Below are positions 48,228 through 54,784 of a stretch of DNA of 64,000 nucleotides, one piece after another (position 1 is the stretch's first letter; every line of letters begins with the position of its first letter). Under the pieces are notes generated by a model, which saw only the letters and a list, made by a program, of their open reading frames with translations, was not told where the DNA came from and did not search any database. The position numbers and the translations under genes were made by a program. The stretch comes from Thermoplasma sp. Kam2015 (lineage in GTDB: Archaea; Thermoplasmatota; Thermoplasmata; Thermoplasmatales; Thermoplasmataceae). Where the stretch lies: NCBI RefSeq assembly GCF_003205235.1, contig NZ_QJSM01000026.1, positions 62,001-126,000 of the forward strand. The letters run 5' to 3'.

Positions 48228-48232
48228 TTTAT

Positions 48233-48420
48233 TGTAAGGTTAGAGGTTTGGAGGAAGCAGTAAAACTCTTTCTTCGGACAATAGATAAATGGATTCCCCT
48301 CAATGGATGTATAAATTGCGTTTCCAATGTTTTTGTATCCCCAGCGATAACCAGATGGTATTATACGTGAATGGTATCGATGAAAGAAGATCCGAAGATC
48401 CAGCTGAGGAGTAGATTACC
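48233..48420 (+). repeat. Interspersed repeat, copy G, opposite orientation
   Basis: Shortest well-conserved copy (about 188 bases) and the only one inverted relative to the others. Read on the minus strand it begins with CTACTCCTCAGCTGGATCTTCG and ends with GAGTTTTACTGCTTCCTCCAAACCTCTAACC. The plus strand retains LEEAVKLFLRT, as in copies C and D. It starts five bases after the bax1 stop and so lies between bax1 and the aminotransferase gene. Confidence 0.82.
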
Positions 48421-48494
48421 TTTTATTCAGTACACTATAAAACTTTGCGATCATGATATCGATACAGTTATTATGCAGACATTGATATGAAATC

Positions 48495-49643
48495 ATGCAA
48501 AGAAAATTGATGCATGTTGGGCCGTCATTTACAAGTTACAGGGTGCAGATGGCCGGTATCGGTGAAAATATAGGTTTTGCGTCTCCCGAATTTCTGGAAG
48601 CAATGAAATACTCACTGGAAGGCCTACTAAGAGTAGCGGGAGCTGATGATGCATATTTGCCTTTCATATTGCCCGGTAGTGGCACGGTGGCGATGGAGAC
48701 GGTGTCTTCAATACTACCTAAAGGAACAAGGACTCTCCTCCTGACCAACGGCGTGTTCGGTGACCGATGGATACCGATCATGTCATCGCATGGGCTTGAT
48801 CTTGATGTACTTTCTGCCGAACCGGGAAAAGCTGTTACTGTTGATGATATGGAGAAAAAGCTTGAGACTGGAAAATACCAAAATCTGATAATGACCCATG
48901 TGGAAACCAGCACCGGCGTACGAATGGATCTTGAAAAGATTGTACCGGTGGCAAGGAGATATGTGGAGAGGATCATCGTGGATGGGGTTGCAAGCCTAGG
49001 TGCTGAGAAGGAGGATGTCAAGAAACTCGGCATAACAGCCGTCATAAGTGCCAGTCAGAAAGCCCTTGGAGCTCCACCCGGTGCAGCCCTTATGGTTGTT
49101 TCGCGTTCCGCACTGGATAGTATTAATGAATTTAGCTATTTCTTCAATCTGAAGAACTGGATCGCGCCAATGGAAAGATATCTTGAGGGTAAAAATGGAT
49201 ACTTGTCTACCGAGCCTGTGGGCGTGATACTCTCGCTGAGCAAGGTGTTTTCGGACATAGATGCCATGGGTCTCGATGCAAGGATAGAGGAACATCGGAG
49301 GCTAACCATGGCGCTTAATGAGGGAATAGAAGCAGCCGGCCTCAGGGTGCTGGCTGACAGGCAACTATGGAGCAATACTGTCACTGCCGTGCTGTCAGAC
49401 CATGCGGATGATATCGTGAAGAGATCGATGGAGCTCGGCGTGGAATTTGCCACCGGAGTTCATCCAAAACTCATAGGGAAATACTTCAGAGTTGGGCATA
49501 TGGGTTATATCAATGATTTTGATGCGCTGACAGCCTTATCGGTGATCGAAAGATCTGCATCGTATTGCGGTGAACGCGTGAAGATCGGCGAAGGCGTAAG
49601 AAGGGCGCAGCAAGTTCTTTTCGAAATGACCGATAGGAACTGA
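48495..49643 (+). CDS. Class V aminotransferase (alanine-glyoxylate / serine-pyruvate type)
   Basis: 382 residues of fold-type I PLP enzymes. LPGSGTVAMET (about 56-66) is the cofactor-phosphate loop. THVETSTG (about 135-142) and VDGVASLG (about 162-169) give the PLP-ring Asp and the SASQKALGAPPG-type loop, where Lys189 is the Schiff-base lysine. The C-terminal KYFRVGHMG is typical. Likely substrates are alanine or serine with glyoxylate or pyruvate. It lies next to moaD (12 bases apart), but no functional link is obvious. Confidence 0.9.
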   Translation: MQRKLMHVGPSFTSYRVQMAGIGENIGFASPEFLEAMKYSLEGLLRVAGADDAYLPFILPGSGTVAMETVSSILPKGTRTLLLTNGVFGDRWIPIMSSHGLDLDVLSAEPGKAVTVDDMEKKLETGKYQNLIMTHVETSTGVRMDLEKIVPVARRYVERIIVDGVASLGAEKEDVKKLGITAVISASQKALGAPPGAALMVVSRSALDSINEFSYFFNLKNWIAPMERYLEGKNGYLSTEPVGVILSLSKVFSDIDAMGLDARIEEHRRLTMALNEGIEAAGLRVLADRQLWSNTVTAVLSDHADDIVKRSMELGVEFATGVHPKLIGKYFRVGHMGYINDFDALTALSVIERSASYCGERVKIGEGVRRAQQVLFEMTDRN

Positions 49644-49654
49644 GGTGGTGAGAG

Positions 49655-49897
49655 ACGAATGTTATAGTTAAATATTTCGCATATTATAGAGAGGCGATCG
49701 GAAAGGATCATGATAGCGTCCAAATAGATCCTGGTTCGCGAATATCGGATCTGGTGGAAATTCTGAGAAATAGATATCCAAATGTCTTCTCCGGCAGAGG
49801 AATATTCGTGGCACGCAATTTTAGATATGCTGATCTTGATGAGACAATAATGGACGGTGATGTGATCGCGATCATGCCTCATGTGTCAGGTGGATGA
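49655..49897 (+). CDS. moaD: MoaD/ThiS-type sulfur-carrier protein, no canonical start codon
   Basis: 80 residues ending PHVSGG, the diglycine tail that becomes a thiocarboxylate and gives sulfur to molybdopterin. NVIVKYFAYYREAIGK begins the ubiquitin-like fold; MDGDVIAIMPHVSGG ends it. The frame contains no ATG, GTG or TTG before the conserved N-terminus; ACG at 49655 occupies the initiator position and GAGGTGGTGA lies 4-15 bases upstream. A downstream GTG would delete half the domain. The two MoeA genes 2-5 kb away fit the molybdopterin pathway. A sequencing or frameshift error cannot be excluded. Confidence 0.8.
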   Translation, partial: TNVIVKYFAYYREAIGKDHDSVQIDPGSRISDLVEILRNRYPNVFSGRGIFVARNFRYADLDETIMDGDVIAIMPHVSGG

Positions 49898-49978
49898 TGT
49901 TTCACCTCTTGGAATTATTTTGATCCCAATGACAGGTAAACCTAATATGTCAAATAATTACATTATGTTTAAATATGA

Positions 49979-50683
49979 ATGTTTCAATTTACATATGTGG
50001 AAAGACTTGAACCGGAAATAGATAAAGATGAACTTGTATCGAGTTTTTTGGGGAGACTAAAGCGATATAGGGGATTGAGGATTCCAGAAAATATATCCAG
50101 AGAAGAAAATTTGAACAGAATTGCCCCATATCTCAAGAGATCAGGCATGTTAGCGGAGCTGCCGGATAACGTGATCATAGATGCACTCAAGCTGTACTTA
50201 GATAGCGTTTCCAGAGGAATTTCGCGCGGAAGAGGATGCCTTTCAGTTCTTGCAGCATGCATTCTGATAGCCTCTAGAAGGCAGTCAAATCCGATGACCT
50301 TGAAATACATAGCGAAGAGCATGCACACCGATGCGTCTCGCATTTGGAGGACGGAAGGTGCAATAATGAAGAACATGAAGACATCCAATATATCGGCCAG
50401 GCCAATGGACTTCGTAGAGAGATATGCTGATGTTCTGAATGTGGATAATGACGTCAGAAATGAGGCTATAAGTGTGATACAGAAGGTTTCAGGAGAAATG
50501 AAGATAATGCGAAAGGCACCGTCAACTATAGCAATATCCGCGATATATCTGGCCTCTGAAAGATTATCCAAACACCTTGTCCAGAGGTATATAGTTAAAA
50601 AGACCGGTATAACTGAGGTTACTCTCATAAGAACATACAAGGAGATGGCCAATTATCTATCTATGTCAATCAACGATACATAG
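49979..50683 (+). CDS. TFB-like transcription factor lacking the N-terminal zinc ribbon
   Basis: 234 residues. Two cyclin-like repeats are visible: first about 55-135 (ALKLYLDSVSRGISRGRGCLSVLAACILIASRRQS) and second about 150-230 (EAISVIQKVSGEMKIMRKAPSTIAISAIYLASERLS, then ITEVTLIRTYKEM, a TFB helix-turn-helix). Normal TFB has about 300 residues with a zinc ribbon and B-finger at the N-terminus. Here only about 40 residues precede the first cyclin fold and they have no Cys. It may still bind TBP-DNA or act as a regulator. TATA-like ATGTTTAAAT lies just upstream. Confidence 0.8.
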   Translation: MFQFTYVERLEPEIDKDELVSSFLGRLKRYRGLRIPENISREENLNRIAPYLKRSGMLAELPDNVIIDALKLYLDSVSRGISRGRGCLSVLAACILIASRRQSNPMTLKYIAKSMHTDASRIWRTEGAIMKNMKTSNISARPMDFVERYADVLNVDNDVRNEAISVIQKVSGEMKIMRKAPSTIAISAIYLASERLSKHLVQRYIVKKTGITEVTLIRTYKEMANYLSMSINDT

Positions 50684-50729
50684 GCGCAAAACTGGCAAAG
50701 CTAACATATGATGTTGTAATGATCATGCT

Positions 50730-51476
50730 ACGGAAAGGATACTGATAACTGATGGGAATTCTGTCTCCGGATTCAATCTTGTGAAATCCGCACTGGAAAT
50801 GGGATATCAGGTCGACGCTATTCTAGGCAACGACCCGATGGTACTAACGAGATCTCTTGAAAATTACAGGAAATTTCATTACGATGCAACGGTGATAACG
50901 AATCAGAGGCCTGAAATGGCCCTTGTTGCGATCGATTTGGTGAAGAAACATATAAAGGCTAAAAAAATCGTGCTCATATCCTCTGATCTTGTCTACAGAC
51001 CATCAAATATTCCGAAACCAGAATTCTGGGATATAGACCCAGTCACCGATGAAGGTAGAATGTTTGCTCGATCTGAAGAGATGCTTGATATATACAGCGA
51101 TATAATATTCCGTACAGGTTATATAATAGGCCTTTGCTCCATAAATCTGTACACAAACATACTCAATCTCGCAAGATCCGGGATGGATATAGTTCTATCC
51201 AGGAGGACGGTGAGAAATTTCATAAGAAACACCGATCTGTCAACATTTGTACTGGAATCTATAGAACGCAATGTAACCGGCGTGTATAACGTTGCATCGG
51301 ACATCGCCACCGAGTATGATTTTGCCCAATGGATATGCAGTGCCTCTGGGCTGAACTGCAAGATCAAGGATTCCGGTGAAGACCTAGGCAATTACTCCAT
51401 GGATACTTCTAAGGCCTTGAAAACATTTGGGTTCAGACCATCCAGCGTTTTAGAGACTTATATGTTTCCAAAATGA
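50730..51476 (+). CDS. RmlD/NAD-dependent epimerase-like (extended SDR) protein, no canonical start codon
   Basis: About 248 residues resembling dTDP-4-dehydrorhamnose reductase and related SDRs. The first strand and Gly motif ILITDGNSVSGFNLV are encoded only if translation begins at ACG 50730; the nearest upstream ATGs are in another frame and the GTG at 50781 would remove the motif. YDATVITNQRPEMA, KIVLISSDLVY (strand 4), FRTGYIIG and GVYNVASD fit the family. The usual YxxxK pair is not obvious. A TATA-like ACATATGAT lies about 20-27 bases ahead of the ACG, which would make a leaderless mRNA. Confidence 0.68.
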   Translation, partial: TERILITDGNSVSGFNLVKSALEMGYQVDAILGNDPMVLTRSLENYRKFHYDATVITNQRPEMALVAIDLVKKHIKAKKIVLISSDLVYRPSNIPKPEFWDIDPVTDEGRMFARSEEMLDIYSDIIFRTGYIIGLCSINLYTNILNLARSGMDIVLSRRTVRNFIRNTDLSTFVLESIERNVTGVYNVASDIATEYDFAQWICSASGLNCKIKDSGEDLGNYSMDTSKALKTFGFRPSSVLETYMFPK

Positions 51477-51707
51477 ATTCTGATTCCTCTCAAAAGGCCT
51501 AGTACCAGCATTTCCATAACAGAGAATAGCGAAAAACCATTACAGTGCCGGAATCCGATATATCTGAGCACAGCATGGAAAATTATTATAAGAAGCGGCT
51601 TCGGAGCAGATCGATGATCTATAAGGGACGCTGAACGCGCCCCTTTACACTAAATCCGGGAACCTCTGGAAGCAGTGAGATTCATACGCTTTGGGTTGGG
51701 AGATAAA

Positions 51708-53588
51708 TCACAGGATCACCTCGCCAATATCGCTTGGTATTTCATATCCTGGATACTGTGATTCTCTACCCTTCAAAGCCTTAAGTTCCTTAATGAAGCT
51801 TCGGCCGGTCTCCGACTCATAGAAATCTATTGAAACAAGGATATCGTAATTTTCCTTCTTTATATGCTTGTACTGAAGGCCCAGCTTTATCGCATAGAAC
51901 TCAAGGCCTATTCCGGCATCAGCTCTGCCCTGCGCAATGGCCTGCGCCACACCAGCCTCAGAGGGGGATTCCCAGAGGTATCCACGCATTGATGTTCTTA
52001 TTCTATCGTCATTGCCTATCATCTCCTCTATAAGATCCCTGGTACCTGATCCCTTGTTTCTGTTAACAAATGTTAGGCCGTTTCTTATTATCTCATCGAA
52101 TGAACCTATACCTGTCCTTGACAGAAAACCCCTATTTCTGTCAAAGCCCCTTATAAGAACTGATCTTTTATTCAGATCCTCGTCTATCACGGGAATGTTG
52201 TAGGTTCCACCCCTAAGTATGTGTATCCCGGACACGTCAGCTACACCTATCCTCATGGCATTTATACCACCCCATGAACCCATGTTCACTATCTTCGCAT
52301 TCCTGTCGGTACCCAGGACGACTATATCCAAAAGTGGGTCACTACTCCCGATGGATATTATTGATGCTGCCCGCTCTTCCAGAGCATAATAATCTACGGT
52401 TTCGCCTGCATCAACATACTTTACATCACCAGGGATGGAGATCAACCCATCTGCGAACCTCAATCTGCTTATGGAGCCTGAATTGCCCATTATGGGGAAG
52501 GCTGTGCCATTTCTGGTTATTATGACCGGATATACTGTTTCTTGCATATGTTCCGGCGTTATCTTTATTGGTACCTTCACTTTCCTTGGACCTTCAACAC
52601 CTCCGAAAACGACAGAACGCATGGCCGGTATCACTATATAGTTAAGTATAATGGCAGAGGACAGAGGAAATCCTGGCATACCTATGAACAGCTTATCTTT
52701 TATCTTTCCAAAGAATGTCGGCTTGCCCGGTCTCATGTTGATCCCATGGAACAATATCGTTCCTCCAACACTCTCTATGACTCTATAGAGCATATCATAG
52801 AAACCGGCTGATGTGGATCCTGACGCCATTAGAATATCAAAGTATTCAAGGTTATCTTTTATGATGCTGATCATTTCTTCCTCCCTGTCTCCCACGTAGC
52901 CAAGAAAGACGGTATCAGCCAGTCCAGTCGCATTGAGTTTGGCCTGGAAGTAATGACCGTTGACGTCGAATATCTGACCCATTTTCAAATCTGTTCCAGG
53001 CTTAACTATCTCGTTTCCCGTGGAGAATACCCCTATTCGGATCCGATCAAAAACCGTCACGTCAGAGACTCCTGAAGCGGCCAGTGTAGCAAGTCTCTCC
53101 GGCATCATAACCGTTCTGGATGTGGCTATGATCTCACCTAAAGATATGTCTGTACCGGCGAACGCAACGTTTTCTCCAGGGTAGACTGAACGATAGATAT
53201 CGACTTGATCCCCTCTCTGTCTTGTATCCTCAACCATAACGACCGCATCTGCCCCCTTTGGCATGATTGCTCCAGTTGCTATGTACACCGCTGTACCCTT
53301 TTCAACGCCCGTTATGCTTGACTCGCCTGGGGATACACTTCCAGCTATCTTAAGCGTAACCGGTCTGTCTTCCCTCGCCTCTTCAACATCGGAATGATCT
53401 ACGGCGAAACCATCAACCTCGGATCTGTCGAATGGAGGCACATCATATTGAGAGAAAATATCCTCGGCAACAACACGCCCTTCCGCTTCTTCAATTGGAA
53501 TATTGGTGGTACGCACTATATTCTTCATCTCCTCAGCAATTATCGTCCTTGCATCGTACGCAGAAACCAGTCTGTGAAAAACCTTCAT
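51708..53588 (-). CDS. moeA: MoeA-type molybdopterin molybdenumtransferase fused to a periplasmic-binding-like domain
   Basis: About 626 residues. The first 400 are MoeA: VEEAEGRVVAEDI, PPFDRSEVDGFAV, ATGAIMPKGADAVVMVED, FSTGNEI and MPGFPLSSA. Residues about 415-628 form a substrate-binding-protein-like domain (GSGTRDLIEEMIGNDD, AQGRADAGIGLEFYA) as in MoeA-PBP fusions of archaea and clostridia; it may sense molybdate or tungstate. The ATG at 53586-53588 follows AGGTGAT at proper spacing and overlaps the preceding gene by four bases. An in-frame TTG two codons earlier is unlikely. Confidence 0.93.
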   Translation of the reverse strand: MKVFHRLVSAYDARTIIAEEMKNIVRTTNIPIEEAEGRVVAEDIFSQYDVPPFDRSEVDGFAVDHSDVEEAREDRPVTLKIAGSVSPGESSITGVEKGTAVYIATGAIMPKGADAVVMVEDTRQRGDQVDIYRSVYPGENVAFAGTDISLGEIIATSRTVMMPERLATLAASGVSDVTVFDRIRIGVFSTGNEIVKPGTDLKMGQIFDVNGHYFQAKLNATGLADTVFLGYVGDREEEMISIIKDNLEYFDILMASGSTSAGFYDMLYRVIESVGGTILFHGINMRPGKPTFFGKIKDKLFIGMPGFPLSSAIILNYIVIPAMRSVVFGGVEGPRKVKVPIKITPEHMQETVYPVIITRNGTAFPIMGNSGSISRLRFADGLISIPGDVKYVDAGETVDYYALEERAASIISIGSSDPLLDIVVLGTDRNAKIVNMGSWGGINAMRIGVADVSGIHILRGGTYNIPVIDEDLNKRSVLIRGFDRNRGFLSRTGIGSFDEIIRNGLTFVNRNKGSGTRDLIEEMIGNDDRIRTSMRGYLWESPSEAGVAQAIAQGRADAGIGLEFYAIKLGLQYKHIKKENYDILVSIDFYESETGRSFIKELKALKGRESQYPGYEIPSDIGEVIL

Positions 53589-54784
53589 AGGCAATCACCT
53601 ATCTCAATGATCTCCACCTCAGCACCCTCAGGATAGCCTTCGCTGTTCTCTTCGATTACGAGATATCCATCTGCAGATATCACAGAATTTATAACTCCTG
53701 AACCTGTCGTACGCATCGGATCTATCATCATCTTTCCATCCTCCTCAAACATTCTTACCCTTACGAACATCCTCATATTTTCGTTGTTAAATATGGATCT
53801 TGTCAGAAATCCTTTCTTAGTGCGACGAACTTTCGATCCCATACCGAACCAGGATCTAATGGCCGGTTCTATTATATTTTCAAAGGCTATTAGTGCGGCC
53901 ACAGGAAGCCCTGAGATCATGAAGATCGGTTTCCCGTTTATGATCCCAAGACCTGTTGTTCGCCCGGGTTTCATCCTAACACCATGAAATACTATCTTTC
54001 CATTTTCCTCGATGATGTCATGCACCAGATCCTGTGAGCTTGGACCGGACCCACCAGTGATTATAATTATGTCCGACTTCATCTCATTTATTTTACTAAG
54101 GATTTCCCCCTTCTCATCGGCAACATTTCCATAAAAAACGGATCGCAGACCAAGATTTGATGCAAGAGCCTTAAGCATGGGCGCGCTGGAATTCTTCACA
54201 ACACCTTCAACAAGCTCTGTTCCCGTTGATAATATGCCAAGTTCAGATCTGAAAACATGCACCTTCTCTACACCCGTCTCTATGAATGCAGGAATGTGCC
54301 AAGGCATTATCCTCTGGCCACTTCGAACGATGATGTCGCCTGCCCTCAGATCCTCTCCTGATCTGGATATATTCTGAAATTTCTTGACCTGCTTATAGAT
54401 TGAGGCTATCTTTCCATCAATAAATGCATCCTCCATCATCACAACCGCATTTGCACCAGTTGGTATTGGAGATCCTGTAAATACAACGGCACATTCGCCT
54501 CGATCGATGCTGAATTCTGGATCATCGCCTATTCTGACCTGCCCAATCACTGTAAGGGTCACAGGATTCGATCTTGATGCGCTCAGGCTGTCCTCAAACC
54601 TAAGAGCTATTCCGTCAACAGCGCTCCTGTCAATCTCCGGAAAATCATGCGGACTCGTCACGTCCTCGGCGCAATATAGCCCTGACGACTCCGCAGCAGG
54701 TATATACTCAGATCTTCCATGTATGGATAATCCTGATGCAAGCTTCAGAGCTTCACCGTATGGTGTAAGGCTCTTGAATTCCAT
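53585..54784 (-). CDS. moeA: Molybdopterin molybdenumtransferase MoeA
   Basis: 399 residues, full-length MoeA with all four domains. FPEIDRSAVDGIALR (substrate region), FTGSPIPTGANAVVMMEDAF, ILSTGTELV and IITGGSGPSSQDLV (MoaB-like fold), and KPIFMISGLPVAALIAFE at the end of that domain. It inserts molybdate or tungstate into adenylylated molybdopterin. First gene of a two-gene unit with the MoeA-PBP fusion; in such pairs the two MoeAs may separate Mo and W incorporation. The start is the ATG at 54782-54784. Confidence 0.94.
   Translation of the reverse strand: MEFKSLTPYGEALKLASGLSIHGRSEYIPAAESSGLYCAEDVTSPHDFPEIDRSAVDGIALRFEDSLSASRSNPVTLTVIGQVRIGDDPEFSIDRGECAVVFTGSPIPTGANAVVMMEDAFIDGKIASIYKQVKKFQNISRSGEDLRAGDIIVRSGQRIMPWHIPAFIETGVEKVHVFRSELGILSTGTELVEGVVKNSSAPMLKALASNLGLRSVFYGNVADEKGEILSKINEMKSDIIIITGGSGPSSQDLVHDIIEENGKIVFHGVRMKPGRTTGLGIINGKPIFMISGLPVAALIAFENIIEPAIRSWFGMGSKVRRTKKGFLTRSIFNNENMRMFVRVRMFEEDGKMMIDPMRTTGSGVINSVISADGYLVIEENSEGYPEGAEVEIIEIGDCL

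Follow-up and report, generated by a model that had tools for sequence, protein, structure and literature searches.

The window analyzed here, a 64,000-nucleotide stretch of the genome of Thermoplasma sp. Kam2015, contains an SDR-like gene that raises the question of how a conserved protein can be translated from a frame without a recognizable start codon. A first-pass annotation had proposed that this gene lacks a usable start, that its first strand is encoded only if translation begins near an ACG, and that the ATG codons just upstream are out of frame. We confirmed that after the in-frame TGA at 50709 the codons read TGT TGT AAT GAT CAT GCT ACG GAA AGG ATA CTG, with ACG at 50730, and that there is no in-frame ATG, GTG, or TTG from this stop to the conserved N-terminus, the first being GTG 50781. 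The upstream ATG codons, at 50708, 50711, 50719, and 50725 (the last given earlier as 50724), are each out of frame. The features of the locus are listed in Table 1.

Table 1. Features of the SDR-like locus and its upstream neighbors, in window coordinates
Feature	Position	Strand	Basis or remark
MoaD/ThiS-family gene, read from ACG 49655	49655..49897	+	Pfam ThiS 7e-14; moaD_arch 1e-19
Shine-Dalgarno-like GAGGTGG, 6 nt 5' of MoaD ACG	49642..49648	+	Sequence; conserved before the G002 GTG
TFB-like gene directly 5' of the SDR-like gene, cyclin repeats only	49979..50683	+	Profile matches
TATA-like box AAAGCTAACATA, conserved as AAARCTAACATA	50697..50708	+	-33 to -22 from the SDR ACG
In-frame TGA closing the SDR frame 5' of ACG	50709..50711	+	Sequence
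SDR-like gene, RmlD-like fold	50730..51476	+	248 codons from ACG including the stop; orthologs in 4 other Thermoplasma genomes
Proposed start codon ACG	50730..50732	+	ACG in the same column of G001, G002, and G003; ATG/GTG in other genera
GTG, first canonical in-frame start codon of the SDR-like gene	50781..50783	+	17 codons downstream of ACG 50730

We compared five Thermoplasma genomes: that of the window organism (G000), G001, which we take to be T. acidophilum, G002 and G003, which contig matches identify as Thermoplasma sp. FL and Thermoplasma sp. KMA_Bin19, respectively, and G004, which we assume is probably T. volcanium. The SDR start column is ACG in four of the five (G000 to G003). It is followed in G001, G002, and G003 by GCA or GAA and then by AGG ATA CTN ATA AC, and none of these three orthologs has an in-frame ATG, GTG, or TTG upstream of the ACG; the G004 gene starts with ATG and is extended by 10 codons. 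Homologs from other genera carry ATG or GTG at this column (G012, G021, G022, G028, G140, G153, G165, G192, and G216), and these homologs begin exactly there, with M-E-R-I-L or V-E-K-I-L. A 29%-identical homolog from a different genus (G014) has an ACG two codons past a stop, and no canonical codon lies nearby; the homolog in G010 also has ACG, but with a GTG two codons further on and in a poor assembly. The tryptic peptide ILITDGNSVSGFNLVK, which lies upstream of every canonical start of the SDR-like gene, is identical in G000, G001, and G002. Since synonymous divergence of this gene between G001 and G002 is saturated (dS of ~2.4), the ACG that they share is informative. The G003 contig is 99.06% identical to window positions 48230 to 53973 (5.7 kb), including the SDR and MoaD genes, so at neither gene can G003 be treated as independent. 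The SDR dS between G000 and G003 is only 0.012, compared to values near 0.31 for other genes of this pair, and this near-identity could reflect either a recent exchange or a mis-binned contig.

The first-pass annotation had also described a TATA-like box ahead of the ACG, consistent with a leaderless transcript, and a box is indeed present there. It has the same sequence in all four ACG orthologs and starts at -33 in each; it is weak compared to the TATA consensus (scores of -1.4 to -2.3), though its position is fixed. The model behind these scores rests on 309 G001 genes that have a single shared ATG; in these the TATA 12-mer mostly starts at -35 to -32 relative to that codon, a spacing that marks leaderless genes. 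The base directly 5' of the SDR ACG is T in all four ACG species, and a T ahead of the start codon has been noted for leaderless genes (PMC7531240). A sigma-70 promoter scan was set aside as not relevant in archaea.

A second gene without a usable start had been reported about 1 kb away, and this case is real. The ACG of the MoaD/ThiS-family gene lies 1,075 bases upstream of the SDR ACG in the context TGA GAG ACG AAT GTT, and its first canonical codon is 33 codons past the ACG. The start column of this gene is ACG in G000 and G003, GTG in G002, ATG in G001, and TTG in G004, and the Shine-Dalgarno sequence is at the same distance from the start in G000, G003, and G002. The TFB-like protein encoded between the two genes matches positions 106 to 311 of the TFIIB model only and, judged from these matches, seems to be without the N-terminal zinc ribbon and B-finger region.

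A scan of genome contigs found only two loci. A genome-wide look for conserved N-termini beginning at ACG, which the first-pass annotation had suggested, was run on about half of the genome (800 kb of G001, 942 kb of G002, and 159 kb of G000), with stop-to-stop frames compared between G001 and G002. Among 580 testable orthologous pairs, 38 had no shared canonical codon near the N-terminus and were sorted by manual inspection. Shadow frames, gene truncation, or an ATG or GTG further in accounted for most of these, and a 118-amino-acid gene with ATC in G001 and ATG in G000 and G002 was left out of the count because of a shared TTG downstream. Four further genes combine a conserved N-terminal ACG with the lack of any canonical start: those for a toprim protein, a DUF92-like protein, a family 2 glycosyltransferase (GT2), and a DUF2070-like protein. 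These names, like that of the FGGY kinase below, are our own reading of the sequences and have no library match behind them.

The toprim gene has ACG in all five Thermoplasma genomes (with a TTG three codons before it in G000) and ATG at the same column in G016. Its TATA 12-mer starts at -32 to -35 and matches the consensus strongly (scores of 6.1 to 8.0). The glycosyltransferase gene, also ACG in all five genomes, has a good match at -30 to -33. For these two genes the 12-mer lies at -32 or -33 in four species; in G004 it lies at -35 and -30, respectively, with scores of 4.3 to 8.0 overall. The G000 glycosyltransferase gene (G000:C24:22068-23302) contains an in-frame TGA and TAG further in, where the other Thermoplasma copies are open, and looks like a broken gene or an assembly error. 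The DUF2070-like gene has ACG in four of the five genomes, and in G004, where it reads ACC CAC ATC ATA, it is also without a canonical start. The DUF92-like gene has ACG in all five, immediately past the UAA that ends the upstream gene, which makes termination-reinitiation likely. DUF92-like frames in several other genera also adjoin an upstream stop with no ATG, GTG, or TTG near (for example, TAG ATC ATA or TAG ACC ATT), and AUH starts by termination-reinitiation are possible there.

The survey also identified an FGGY kinase gene whose N-terminal column is ATT or ATC in four species (G000 to G003), with no plausible canonical start and with a box at -33 in the two species measured; it would represent a second class of non-canonical start. 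A transporter gene on the minus strand of G001 (rc 304822-306034 in the concatenated G001 stretches) has CTG where G002 has TTG, and may use a CUG start.

An ordinary Thr ACG would be expected to drift among the ACN codons. Within the five ACG genes, only 1 of the 50 internal columns that are Thr in every species is ACG throughout (toprim counted without G004 and GT2 without G000), while the start column is ACG in each species that lacks a canonical start there, with the exception of the DUF2070-like gene of G004. This result, together with the same ACG column in the SDR genes of G001, G002, and G003, argues for more than chance. Where dS was measurable, dN/dS was well below 1 (0.015/0.32 for toprim, 0.006/0.31 for DUF2070, and 0.025/0.31 for DUF92), and these ratios show purifying selection on most of the ACG-start proteins, namely those with measurable dS.

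The absence of a canonical start, the conservation of the ACG column, and the conservation of promoter spacing are directly observed. From them we infer, with no RNA or protein data but with considerable confidence, that translation of the SDR-like gene begins at ACG 50730 and that Thermoplasma uses near-cognate starts, mostly ACG and mainly on leaderless mRNAs, for ~1% of its genes. RNA-seq data for T. acidophilum exist and were used in a published study (PMC6877293). Of the two possibilities raised earlier, chance or real ACG initiation, the second is supported, because the orthologs keep the ACG and the box spacing at saturated synonymous divergence, which rejects chance and also a sequencing error or a base insertion.

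Of the alternatives that we weighed, initiation at another near-cognate codon beside the ACG, such as the ATA at SDR codon 4, survives best, although we regard it as unlikely. The four species conserve that ATA as well, and AUH starts seem to occur in Thermoplasma; however, the ATG and GTG codons of SDR homologs sit exactly at the ACG column, the box spacing points to the ACG, and an ACG column is the feature shared by all five start-less genes. We give slightly less weight to C-to-U editing, which would make the genomic ACG an mRNA AUG and leave initiation normal, as in plant organelles. DNA sequence alone leaves this possible. We know of no mRNA editing of this type in archaea. The predominance of ACG among the non-canonical starts found (five genes, compared to one with AUU/AUC and one with CUG in a single species) would fit such editing, but the conserved AUU/AUC of the kinase cannot become AUG through it and would need a separate explanation. 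ACG-to-AUG editing is common in chloroplasts (PMC9845219).

It is less probable again that the SDR-like gene is decayed or truncated and either starts at GTG 50781 or is untranslated. In a fold model built with six homologs (pLDDT 92.3), strand beta1 comprises residues 3 to 6, numbered from the ACG, and the first helix residues 12 to 23, so that a start at this GTG is predicted to delete beta1, as the first-pass annotation had claimed, and roughly half the helix. The neighbors of the model in Foldseek are RmlD and UDP-glucose 4-epimerases, placing it among Rossmann folds of the RmlD type. The model shares this fold and architecture with RmlD/extended SDR structures (PDB 1vl0 and 2ggs, and MAT2B 2ydy; TM-score of 0.71 to 0.79 by query) but has only 16 to 17% identity to them and is missing the YxxxK pair, and it does not meet curated family cutoffs (RmlD_sub_bind, 19.2 bits versus 27; rmlD, 12.7 versus 224). 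In the alignment, E and F occupy the two YxxxK positions of the window protein. The pair is also missing in the other Thermoplasma proteins and in G014, while Y and K are kept in the G022 homolog. Without this pair, the protein is probably no standard reductase, and from its sequence it may be non-catalytic or act differently. The missing pair would be compatible with decay, and dN/dS between G000 and G003 is uninformative at so low a dS. Against decay, conservation of the protein stands at 63% across 244 residues; counting from the ACG column, G000 and G001 share 16 of their first 17 residues, with changes mostly in third positions; and GTG 50781 is itself not conserved (GTA in G001 and GTC in G002). 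A sequencing error or frameshift hiding an upstream ATG, for which the out-of-frame ATG codons 50719 and 50725 just 5' of the ACG might speak, can be dismissed, since independent assemblies, one of them a single-contig genome, have the ACG, and G001 and G002 have no ATG close to the site in any frame, which also contradicts the earlier idea that an inserted base would put an upstream ATG in frame.

If the SDR-like gene is read by near-cognate initiation at ACG, RNA polymerase would start the mRNA at or beside the A of this codon, a 5' end that we infer, and the ribosome with initiator Met-tRNA would treat ACG at the 5' terminus as near-cognate to AUG, with decoding as Met also inferred. Most likely, the initiator tRNA would pair with ACG through a C-A mismatch in the second position while the codon is held at the mRNA 5' end, giving a protein that begins Met-Glu-Arg-Ile-Leu. 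AUU/AUC, and perhaps CUG, would be rarer starts than ACG in Thermoplasma. The context would be mostly leaderless (SDR, toprim, glycosyltransferase, and kinase) but would also include a Shine-Dalgarno sequence (MoaD) or a position right after an upstream stop (DUF92). Weak starts are perhaps kept to hold expression low, as for sigR in Streptomyces (PMC5472188), a regulatory purpose that we infer.

Two published observations count against such initiation: a Haloferax leaderless reporter accepted AUG only (cited in PMC4574771), and aIF1 of Sulfolobus disfavors non-canonical starts (cited in PMC6237735). We considered loss of aIF1 as a cause of lax start choice and rejected it; all five Thermoplasma genomes have SUI1, as do 40 of the 41 genomes searched, so start choice is not lax for want of this fidelity factor. 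We also rejected a dedicated initiator-like tRNA for ACG, as the G001 tRNA-Thr(CGT), found with half of the genome scanned, has G1-C72 like an elongator.

We found no description of natural ACG starts in prokaryotic genomes in the open literature searched, coverage of which was incomplete, and to our knowledge none has been described. Standard gene callers never accept ACG as a start, so such proteins would be truncated in databases or absent from them, including those of complete reference Thermoplasma genomes. The AUU/AUC start of infC, the gene for bacterial IF3, is similarly a conserved true start other than AUG, GUG, or UUG that annotation often misses (PMC5472188), but it is an IF3-regulated start of a single bacterial gene, whereas Thermoplasma would have an archaeal set of unrelated genes that start at ACG and are mostly leaderless. 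The GUC start of Streptomyces sigR is likewise conserved, non-canonical, and misannotated in available genomes; unlike the Thermoplasma starts it is bacterial, experimentally proven, and not ACG, and it lowers expression and is IF3 repressed (PMC5472188). A GUC start on a leaderless archaeal mRNA is known from Halobacterium salinarum (Srinivasan 2006, cited in PMC4574771), where it concerns one experimental gene and no genus-wide conserved set. In eukaryotes and viruses, e.g., the Sendai virus P/C mRNA, ACG is decoded as Met by initiator tRNA (cited in PMC9845219), which concerns a scanning ribosome, whereas in Thermoplasma the ACG is probably 5'-terminal on an archaeal mRNA.

Genus-conserved ACG starts on probable leaderless mRNAs provide test cases for how the archaeal ribosome and aIF1 choose a start at the 5' end. 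The same set of genes also bears on whether weak starts are kept as a means of expression control.
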